A DNA stretch of 64,000 nt, taken from assembly GCA_003278225.1 (NCBI GenBank), contig QCGC01000002.1, forward strand, positions 120,738 to 184,737. Reading direction: 5' to 3'. Source of the DNA: Prochlorococcus sp. AG-363-P01. GTDB lineage: Bacteria; Cyanobacteriota; Cyanobacteriia; PCC-6307; Cyanobiaceae. The notes beneath the pieces are model-generated. The model did not search any database. It was not told the origin of the DNA and saw only the letters and a program-made list of their open reading frames with translations. Below, one piece after another: positions 51,399 to 55,161 of this stretch (positions within the stretch are counted from its first letter, which is position 1; each line of letters starts with the position of its first letter). A program made the position numbers and the translations under genes.

Positions 51399-51613
51399 AA
51401 AAATTTCTTAAAATCAGATCCTAACTAATTGGTTCTAAGAAAGTAGGAGCCATTTCTCTTCTTTTAAAACTCTTTGTGCATACCCCTCAAACTAGTTGAA
51501 TCTCAGCTAATATTTTGATGCTTTGGCAATAGTGATGTGACAAGGTTGGATTAATCATCAAACTTTGTCGAATGCATCATGAGTTGTCTGTATCCAAAAA
51601 GGAGGAGGTGTTC

Positions 51614-51667
51614 ATGATCGAAGGTTGTATGCAAAAGGGTCTACTCATCAAGGAGAATGCCGACTGA
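51614..51667 (+). CDS. candidate 17-residue small ORF with strong Shine-Dalgarno
   Basis: The ORF MIEGCMQKGLLIKENAD is too short for the ORF track. It is preceded by AAAAAGGAGGAGGTG, a near-perfect Shine-Dalgarno 5-6 bases from the ATG, which is rare in this window. A TGCCGA/TCGGCA hairpin spans its stop codon and a strong terminator follows 55 bases later. Either a real micropeptide or a regulatory leader-type RNA is possible. No family is known to me. Confidence 0.4.
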   Translation: MIEGCMQKGLLIKENAD

Positions 51668-51675
51668 TTTCGGCA
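51658..51675 (+). other. hairpin over the small ORF stop codon
   Basis: TGCCGA pairs with TCGGCA across the six-base loop CTGATT, a perfect 6-bp stem that includes the sORF stop. It suggests a folded RNA. The next stem in the same unit is the terminator. Confidence 0.45.
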
Positions 51676-51719
51676 CCTAATTGCTTGATCTAACGGTTCC
51701 GAGACACAGTGGACCCGGC

Positions 51720-51758
51720 AAAAGCCCCAGATCTTATTGAAGATCTGGGGCTTTTGTT
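51720..51758 (+). terminator. strong Rho-independent terminator
   Basis: AAAAGCCCCAGATCTT pairs perfectly with AAGATCTGGGGCTTTT across an ATTG loop, giving a 16-bp stem with a T-rich end (CTTTTGTT). It is one of the two strongest terminators in the window, about 255 bases before the porin start. It must end a transcript that begins upstream on the plus strand, where the only candidate content is the short unit described above; the symmetrical A run could also serve the minus strand. Confidence 0.85.
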
Positions 51759-51980
51759 ATTTAGGGAAATTGCAAACTGACAACAAATAATGCCTATCTA
51801 ACTTCAAAAATATTCTTGGCTGAATTTCTTTGTTCAACATTTAATTAGAATTAAAAATAAAGCTTTCTTCACTCATAATAGACCTGAAAAAACTTTGCTA
51901 ATCTCTCAGTGATACAGTCATTAGAATTTCTGTCACAGCTGATTGTATAAATTGATTCAAAATAGATAAAAATATAGTGT

Positions 51981-52013: not shown

Positions 52014-53219
52014 ATGAAACTATTCCAGCGCCTGCTGGTTGCTCCTGCTGCTTTGGGCCTAATGGTTCCAATGGCTGCAAATGCTTCCGAGCAAATCAAC
52101 GACTTCAATAGCAACGTAGACTCCATCGAGCAAAGCGTTGACTCTCTCGAAGCCGGAGTTTTTTCAAACCAGCAAACCAAGCTTTCTGGTTCTACTGTCT
52201 TCAACGTTGGTGGTGTTGATGGTGGTTCAGGAAGTGACAAGTCCACAGACGATGAAGCAGTTGTTTTCAACTACGACACAATCATCAATCTGGACAGCAG
52301 CTTCTCAGGAAGTGACCTTCTGAGAACCACACTCCGCGCATCTAACTTCAGTGCAGATGCTCCTTTCGGAAACAACGTTGCTGCTCAAGAAAGAGGATTC
52401 ACTGGTTCAGGGGATAATGTTGTTGTCGACAGAGCTTTCTATCAGTTCCCAATAGGCGAAGATTTCACCGCAACATTCGGTGCAAAGGTTCGTCAGGACG
52501 ACATCCTTGGTGTATGGCCTTCTGATTACCCAAGTGACAGCATCCTTGATGTATTGACATATGCTGGCGCAAATAAAGCCTACCCTCTTACCGTAGGCGC
52601 TGGCGTTGGCATTAGCTACCTGTCAGACAGCGGACGCTGGTCTGCAACTGCATTGGCTATTTCTGAAGAGGGTGACCAAGTTGATGAAGGTATTTGGAAA
52701 GAGAATGCCGATGACGTTTTAACTACACAAGTCGCTTACCTCGGTGACCGTTGGAGAATTGCTCTTGCTAACACTGTTGCTGACGATGGCCAAAACTGGG
52801 GCGAAGGAAGTTCTAATGATCAGTACAACGCCTGGGGCTTAAGTGGTGTTTATCAAATCGATGCAGGTCGTAGACCTACCGATGACATCACCCTGATCCC
52901 ATCTTCCATCAGTGGTGGTATTGGCTGGTCAAACGTTATCGATGAAGATGACAGCCGCGACATCGAAGATTCACGTACCTACTCATTAGGTGTGGTTTGG
53001 ACCGATGCTTTCAGTGAAGGTAATGATTTCGGTATTGCCTGGGGCACTGCTGAAGATCAAATCAACGATGGTGGCTATGACGACCCACATGCATGGGAGA
53101 TCTACTATGCAATGGGTATTAATGACAACATCACCGTAACTCCTGCGTTCTTCCAAGTTCAGAAGGATAGTGAAGACGATCTAAATGGTGTAGTTGTAAA
53201 AACAACCTTCACCTTCTGA
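52014..53219 (+). CDS. som: Som-type outer-membrane porin lacking an SLH domain
   Basis: An outer-membrane beta-barrel protein. Residues 1-24 are a signal peptide (LLVAPAALGLMVPMAANA). A short coiled segment (NDFNSNVDSIEQSVDSLEAG) follows, then alternating beta-strand sequence rich in Gly, Asp and Ser to the C-terminal Phe (VVKTTFTF), as expected for BAM targeting. The family matches cyanobacterial Som/iron-uptake-type porins, but the usual SLH domain that binds peptidoglycan is absent. Length 401 residues. Codon use is clearly more GC-rich and biased than neighbours, as in highly expressed genes. Two hairpins follow it. Confidence 0.85.
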   Translation: MKLFQRLLVAPAALGLMVPMAANASEQINDFNSNVDSIEQSVDSLEAGVFSNQQTKLSGSTVFNVGGVDGGSGSDKSTDDEAVVFNYDTIINLDSSFSGSDLLRTTLRASNFSADAPFGNNVAAQERGFTGSGDNVVVDRAFYQFPIGEDFTATFGAKVRQDDILGVWPSDYPSDSILDVLTYAGANKAYPLTVGAGVGISYLSDSGRWSATALAISEEGDQVDEGIWKENADDVLTTQVAYLGDRWRIALANTVADDGQNWGEGSSNDQYNAWGLSGVYQIDAGRRPTDDITLIPSSISGGIGWSNVIDEDDSRDIEDSRTYSLGVVWTDAFSEGNDFGIAWGTAEDQINDGGYDDPHAWEIYYAMGINDNITVTPAFFQVQKDSEDDLNGVVVKTTFTF

Positions 53220-53443: not shown

Positions 53444-53477
53444 CTATGGTCATATATCTGCCATAGTCCATGACCAT
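53444..53477 (+). promoter_or_regulatory. competing hairpins over the cysK start codon
   Basis: Two inverted repeats overlap. CTATGG (53444-53449) pairs with CCATAG (53461-53466). ATGGTCAT (53446-53453) pairs with ATGACCAT (53470-53477), which contains the cysK ATG. They share bases 53446-53449, so only one can form at a time, and the second would hide the start codon. No Shine-Dalgarno is seen before the ATG. This looks like a possible translation switch. Confidence 0.35.
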
Positions 53478-54462: not shown

Positions 54463-55161
54463 ATGAGACTAGACCCTTACGCAATTCTCGGAGTGAACTC
54501 AAAAGCTAGCTCTGAACAAATCAAGGCAGCGTATCGAGAATTAGTGAAGAAACACCATCCTGACGCTGGAGGTGATAAGCAAAAAATCCTCTCACTAAAT
54601 GCAGCCTGGGAAGTTTTAGGTGATAAAGAACATCGACTTGCCTATGACAGAGAGTACCAATCTCAGAATGCTCTTGGAAAGGAGGCTCAAGAACGTGAAA
54701 TTCGCAATGCCCGTGCTAGTTCAGCTGCACAAAAGGCCCAAGGTCAATCTGCAGCAGCTGAAGAAGCACTAATAAGGTGGCTAGAAGAGGTTTATACCCC
54801 TATCGACAAATTGCTTGGCCAAGTCATTAATCCATTTCCTGCACAACTGCAAGATCTCTCAGCCGATCCATATGATGACGCTCTAATGCAAGCGTTCTGC
54901 CACTACTTAAGTCAAAGTCAAAAAAAACTTGAGAAAGTAAACAAAATCTATCAATCGCTACCAACTCCAAAATCGATCCAAGATTTTGGTCTAAGTCTGT
55001 ATCACTGTTTTTCTCAAGTTCAAGATGCATTTAATGAAATTGAGCGCTATACAACAGGTTATGTGGATAATTATCTACATGATGGAAATGAAATGTTGTT
55101 AGAAGCAAAGCAAATGCGTTCACATCTAAAAAAAGAACGTCTTCGTTTAAAATATTCTTAA
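54463..55161 (+). CDS. J-domain (DnaJ-type) co-chaperone protein
   Basis: A 232-residue protein with an N-terminal J domain (about 3-65: DPYAILGVNSKASSEQIKAAY, then HPD in KKHHPDAGG), which would stimulate a DnaK ATPase. There is no Gly/Phe region and no zinc finger, so it is not a canonical DnaJ. The rest is helical and charged (QSQKKLEKVNKIYQSL), like cyanobacterial type III J proteins. It follows cysK by 24 bases. The client is unknown. Confidence 0.88.
   Translation: MRLDPYAILGVNSKASSEQIKAAYRELVKKHHPDAGGDKQKILSLNAAWEVLGDKEHRLAYDREYQSQNALGKEAQEREIRNARASSAAQKAQGQSAAAEEALIRWLEEVYTPIDKLLGQVINPFPAQLQDLSADPYDDALMQAFCHYLSQSQKKLEKVNKIYQSLPTPKSIQDFGLSLYHCFSQVQDAFNEIERYTTGYVDNYLHDGNEMLLEAKQMRSHLKKERLRLKYS

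Follow-up and report, generated by a model that had tools for sequence, protein, structure and literature searches.

A widespread cyanobacterial RNA whose micro-ORF may be kept for its translation rather than for its product

The described RNA closest to the one reported here is ncl0160, a predicted sRNA that was first mapped in Synechocystis PCC 6803 and has homologs in 83 strains, including Nostoc PCC 7120 (Brenes-Alvarez et al., PMC4734099). According to the passages of that paper that deal with ncl0160, the homologs contain a conserved ORF for 23-25 amino acids after a ribosome site, which starts with ATG or sometimes GTG and stops with TAA, TAG or TGA, and the RNA was read as probably translated into a small peptide. 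Prochlorococcus and marine Synechococcus were not among the strains surveyed, and the same passages report no analysis of codon constraint or of pairing between the ORF and the 3' UTR (PMC4734099). No reported function was found in the literature for ncl0160 or for the present RNA family.

The RNA studied here lies at positions 51500-51760 of the window, the whole 64,000-nucleotide stretch of Prochlorococcus sp. AG-363-P01 DNA that was analysed. As far as the consulted description of ncl0160 goes, distant relatives of this RNA share with it the wide cyanobacterial distribution, their ORF of 23-24 codons, with its ribosome site and ATG or GTG start, would agree with that of ncl0160, and all three stop codons also occur in the RNA family, TAA and TAG being common in its distant branch, whereas the window form differs in having 17 codons and another ORF end. 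Matched by description only, the distant form is very probably ncl0160, and the window RNA is very probably a previously unreported picocyanobacterial branch of it; the RNA, which the first-pass annotation matched to no cyanobacterial sRNA, very probably corresponds to one that was described but uncharacterised. Rfam gave no credible match for the window and twelve relatives at gathering or relaxed thresholds, and a two-piece tmRNA was rejected because ARAGORN finds a tRNA-Asn only.

Anatomy of the RNA

With a predicted promoter and a terminator of its own (Table 1), the locus is supported by sequence comparison as a stand-alone transcription unit, in agreement with the first-pass annotation, and we infer that the RNA is expressed. 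In most relatives a TANNNT box and the conserved 5' end are separated by the same distance, and transcription is accordingly predicted to start near 51520, which lengthens the RNA from the roughly 200 nt first proposed to about 239 nt. The terminator, first taken for a perfect 16-bp stem, is perfect over 17 bp, and its symmetric stem may also serve convergent genes on the minus strand. At its base lies an internal loop (GA/A) whose closing pairs are CGA/UCG in most near-branch relatives and CUA/UAG in the distant branch, where 19 of 44 sequences fitted the search pattern and all 19 were alike. For the 240-nt strand the predicted folding energy is -90.7 kcal/mol (z = -6.5), and none of 200 shuffles was as stable. 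The Shine-Dalgarno sequence noticed earlier before the 17-codon ORF is present, and in an alignment with 10 relatives it is invariant or nearly so, as are the start, the stop and most of the second half of the ORF. The comparison with related strains, in which loss of both the ORF and the stems had been named beforehand as a refutation, did not refute the RNA.

Table 1. Features of the RNA locus and the adjoining porin gene in window coordinates. R1 is the covariance model of the RNA core.
Feature	Position	Strand	Basis
-10 promoter element TAATAT	51508-51513	+	TANNNT just before the conserved 5' end aligns across most relatives
Predicted whole RNA, ~239 nt	51520-51758	+	-10 box, terminator, contiguous R1 and R2 matches
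5' hairpin with conserved bulge GNAN (here GAAT, 51570-51573)	51525-51588	+	Covariation
Shine-Dalgarno sequence GGAGGAGGTG	51601-51610	+	Invariant in the core alignment
17-codon micro-ORF MIEGCMQKGLLIKENAD (start ATG 51614, stop TGA 51665-51667)	51614-51667	+	Start, frame and stop kept in 106 of 106 distinct ORFs
Helix P1, 5' arm, within the ORF (partner 51708-51716)	51637-51645	+	87-100% canonical per pair
Helix P2, 5' arm, within the ORF (partner 51698-51703)	51649-51654	+	92-100% canonical in relatives
Bulge GAAT separating P2 and P3	51655-51658	+	GAAN in 115 of 117 relatives
Helix P3, 5' arm GCCG (partner 51694-51697)	51659-51662	+	96-100% canonical
3' UTR strand closing P3, P2 and P1	51694-51716	+	Helix pairing
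Terminator hairpin (arms 51719-51735 and 51740-51756, 100% complementary)	51719-51756	+	17-bp perfect inverted repeat; covarying stem pairs
SomB-type iron-uptake porin	52014-53219	+	NCBIfam NF033921, E 6e-27, just below the family cut-off

Distribution and the distant form

With BLASTN the RNA was detected in 11 genomes of a set of 40 relatives, a count that includes the genome of the window itself. Within the family R1 matches 203 of 400 genomes, which almost without exception have a single copy. Named carriers are Synechococcus WH7803 and WH5701, Prochlorococcus MIT0701, Cyanobium, Vulcanococcus and Ca. Synechococcus spongiarum. The RNA is also carried by genome G092, which we take to be MIT9313, while R1 has no match in genome G017, presumably SS120, or in group g18, a set of small genomes that we take to be high-light Prochlorococcus; the presence in the first and absence from the second resemble the distribution of cluster 229. 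That putative ncRNA of 161 nt was described in MIT9313 and WH8102 and not in MED4 or SS120 (Axmann et al. 2005, PMC1242208). Judging by strain distribution, our guess is that cluster 229 and the present RNA are the same. Yfr6, the Downstream-peptide RNA (RF01704), is likewise a picocyanobacterial RNA of about 240 nt and has a short ORF in its middle, but its ORF and fold are different, and it occurs in MED4 and SS120, whereas the window RNA was not found in the lineages presumed to be these; it was rejected, as neither the gathering nor a relaxed threshold gave a match. Yfr103 was rejected because it is multi-copy (seven paralogs in CC9605) and 290-328 nt long, whereas the present RNA usually has one copy per genome. 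Viral contigs and phages gave no match to the RNA, and carriage by phages or viruses was rejected on this ground. Genome G056 bears a second, decayed copy some 5 kb away from its intact counterpart (L046, 9349-9477, minus strand), in which the Shine-Dalgarno sequence and the ORF are gone and the 3' domain is kept in part. A metagenome bin labelled Bifidobacterium breve (L094) also bears the RNA, on a contig that is evidently cyanobacterial contamination.

Across the class (242 genomes), R1 matches three genomes in two other families with E-values of 4e-5 to 1.4e-4 per genome. BLASTN from these outside matches recovered relatives in 37 of 40 and in 35 of 38 genomes belonging to many families, and a simple pattern search matched 171 of the 242 genomes, a few of them by chance because up to two mismatches were tolerated. 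The RNA was not found by BLASTN from the distant relatives in two genomes of 1.4-1.5 Mb, which we take to be UCYN-A. Its apparent absence from these and from the presumed high-light Prochlorococcus would make it useful as a marker for what can be dispensed with when genomes are reduced.

Outside picocyanobacteria the ORF has 23-24 codons (e.g. MTDSSKIMGLLVEVSRLSAGAVL), compared with 17 in the window branch, and it stops with TAA in 28 cases and TAG in 16, with one TGA relative (L246). The order of parts is common to both branches: Shine-Dalgarno sequence, start, AGT repeat, GGGTC, stop, GACCCG and terminator. The gene order RNA-porin-cysK-DnaJ is also shared, since in genome G457 an OprB/SLH porin comes after the RNA, with cysK and a DnaJ-like gene next to it, and in the window the porin at 52014 is followed by a PALP/cysK gene at 53470 and a DnaJ-like gene at 54463. 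The sequence evidence taken alone is modest, given the above E-values over 242 genomes, but together with the shared gene order it makes a convincing case that the near and distant forms belong to one family.

Fold of the RNA and maintenance of the micro-ORF

The 5' hairpin has 14 of its 19 pairs altered on both sides, with 93.6% of cells paired, and its covariation score, which lies far above shuffles and slid controls, was matched by none of 500 shuffles. Covariation was also tested against a tree-based null purpose-written for this analysis; the top of that ranking is taken by pairs of the 5' hairpin (18-58 and 23-49) and of the terminator, and these two elements alone reach significance. 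P1 itself shows little covariation, owing to its very strong conservation. In a search of 61 genomes the model of the 5' hairpin gave strong matches at this locus only, and an aptamer shared with other loci was rejected for this reason. In the Cyanobium-like genomes of group g6 (L048, L113, L144 and others), the first hairpin has diverged in its 5' half, and matches to the model of the 5' hairpin are marginal or missing.

Codons 9-17 of the ORF pair with the 3' UTR as helices P1 (GGGUCUGCU/AGCGGACCC), P2 (CGCGGA/UCCGCG) and P3 (GCCG/CGGU), for which the canonical fractions in Table 1 refer to 117 sequences. Among relatives, P2 changes from C-G to U-A, the window copy of P2 having two mismatches, and reading of the sequences finds P3 as GCCUC/GAGGU in the spongiarum group and GCCA/UGGU in the L057 group. 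The first-pass annotation had placed a hairpin TGCCGA/TCGGCA across the stop codon; it is present in the window (51658-51663/51670-51675), but three of its four pairs are canonical in no more than 77-82% of relatives, while the same GCCG is paired with the CGGT of the 3' UTR (51694-51697) in 96-100%. At the level of sequence comparison, the conserved 3' fold is thus shown to be formed by the second half of the ORF and the 3' UTR rather than by the stop-codon hairpin. The 5' hairpin and the 3' domain share a bulge motif, GNAN followed by GC and opposite GU, and we know of no named motif of this kind; its repetition in both domains suggests a binding protein. Outside the helices, the AGUU after the start and the linker after P1 are conserved unpaired stretches.

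The ORF is at full length in 140 of 141 distinct loci. A copy in genome G019 (L011, 1499-1626, minus strand) has a 1-base deletion in the ORF and an altered local hairpin after it, and looks as though it were losing frame and fold at the same time. None of the 106 distinct ORFs contains an internal stop, whereas shuffling of the columns yields 6.6 +/- 2.0 that do. Of these ORFs 59 begin with ATG and 47 with GTG, and 97 end with TGA, 5 with TAA and 4 with TAG. On the tree of the element, all five stop changes inferred in the near branch lead from stop to stop, as do all nine in the 23-codon branch, and all five inferred start changes in the near branch fall on position 1 and exchange ATG and GTG. 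The changes inside the frame are distributed differently from those of a protein gene. By parsimony counts, which are rough and involve no likelihood test, changes in the near-branch ORF fall on codon positions 1:2:3 as 82:125:122, with 217 non-synonymous and 61 synonymous, and in the distant branch as 61:74:79, with 129 and 52; the control, an adjoining gene for an 87-aa protein in the 17 genomes where it was readable, gave 89:35:188, with 109 and 162. The comparison of these counts shows, at sequence level, that start, frame and stop are kept while the amino acids drift as in non-coding sequence.

These counts bear directly on the reading of the RNA as a micropeptide mRNA, in which the 17-aa peptide (23-24 aa elsewhere) would act on a protein or membrane and the fold would merely tune translation or stability. 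The strong ribosome site and the preserved frame and stop agree with such a peptide, a consensus MxxS[CS]xx[QK]GLLIAE[NK]A is visible among the ORFs, and the consulted account of ncl0160 takes that RNA as probably translated into a small peptide (PMC4734099). However, third-position changes are not in excess, non-synonymous changes outnumber synonymous ones, and the most conserved codons are those in P1-P3, whose changes follow the pairing. Because strong constraint on the RNA also lowers synonymous changes, the counts would still be compatible with a functional peptide that depends on few particular residues, and we regard this explanation as unlikely though worth keeping in view. Of the micropeptide first proposed for this ORF, what stands is a ribosome site under selection and a real and maintained micro-ORF; the peptide sequence does not appear to be selected, as its amino acids change as they would without coding constraint.

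Neighbouring genes and the proposed role of translation

The porin gene is an ancestral neighbour of the RNA and lies outside the transcript: it starts 256 nt past the RNA end in the window and in other cyanobacterial families, too, a porin gene often follows the RNA. The window porin has no Pfam SLH match, and its alignment skips residues ~50-110 of the L057 relative, the stretch with the S-layer homology domain; without this stretch it may lack the usual peptidoglycan anchor. Upstream of the RNA, several picocyanobacteria have psbD, a gene that is multi-copy in many cyanobacteria. Draft contigs (L018, L039, L079, L089 and others) often start 200-500 bases upstream of the RNA, and psbD may be the cause of these assembly breaks.

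The old neighbourhood with the porin gene, the stand-alone sRNA anatomy and the conserved unpaired AGUU and linker would suit an SgrS-like dual-function or trans-acting base-pairing sRNA, perhaps acting on the porin mRNA, in which translation modulates access to the pairing region. A crude duplex test against porin 5' regions of four genomes, which is weak on long strands, gave no signal of pairing (z -1.2 to +1.5), and the codon-change counts of both branches argue against the conserved functional peptide of a dual-function sRNA; we give this reading a small chance. A cis-acting leader-peptide attenuator of the downstream gene, in the window the porin, is considerably harder to sustain. The order of ribosome site, short ORF, overlapping hairpins, terminator and a porin 256 nt on is leader-like, but at the loci read in detail the next gene is often a convergent DUF2079 membrane protein on the opposite strand, sometimes a porin and elsewhere a pterin dehydratase; a downstream gene that is so often on the opposite strand, together with the terminator, argues that the RNA is not a leader. 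Moreover, P1-P3 do not overlap the terminator arms, so no choice between terminator and anti-terminator is visible, and we consider an attenuator very improbable. A purely structural RNA with an accidental ORF would agree with a nucleotide-level constraint that exceeds the amino-acid constraint, but is equally improbable in view of 14 of 14 inferred stop changes (both branches) that remain stops, starts that switch only between AUG and GUG, the lack of in-frame stops and the perfect Shine-Dalgarno sequence.

The reading that we prefer, with confidence just short of even, is that of a stand-alone, translated and structured sRNA, the picocyanobacterial branch of an ncl0160-like family that occurs in most cyanobacterial families, for which reading of the ORF by the ribosome would matter. 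A translation-gated RNA accords with the fixed length of the ORF, the retention of its start and stop, the freedom of its amino acids and the constraint on pairing, and what counts would be the ribosome's passage through the ORF more than its product. Since the stop codon lies in the loop of the P1-P3 hairpin, the ribosome would have to melt that hairpin before arriving at it, and the fold of the 3' domain would consequently report how well the RNA is translated. In the most speculative step, the 5' hairpin and the 3' domain, which carry the same bulge motif, could, at low levels of translation, act on a partner or be bound jointly by a protein, and translation could open one of the two bulge sites. 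The full proposal, in which a widespread RNA keeps being translated rather than keeping its product, with a sequence-indifferent ORF, a ribosome-opened hairpin and translation sensing through paired GNAN-bulge sites, is possible but doubtful as a whole. The analysis offers a sharp claim, namely that translation is kept, the peptide is free and the ORF is part of the fold. It also establishes a connection between the ocean's dominant picocyanobacteria and an overlooked cyanobacterial RNA of very wide conservation, and provides a fold model and an alignment that are missing from Rfam.

Compared with known systems, the window RNA resembles trpL-type leader-peptide attenuators in that translation of a short ORF would compete with RNA folding, and differs from them in having no conserved co-directional downstream gene. 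With SgrS/SgrT and other dual-function sRNAs it shares a short ORF within a small RNA, but its amino acids are not conserved, and the ORF itself is a strand of the RNA fold.
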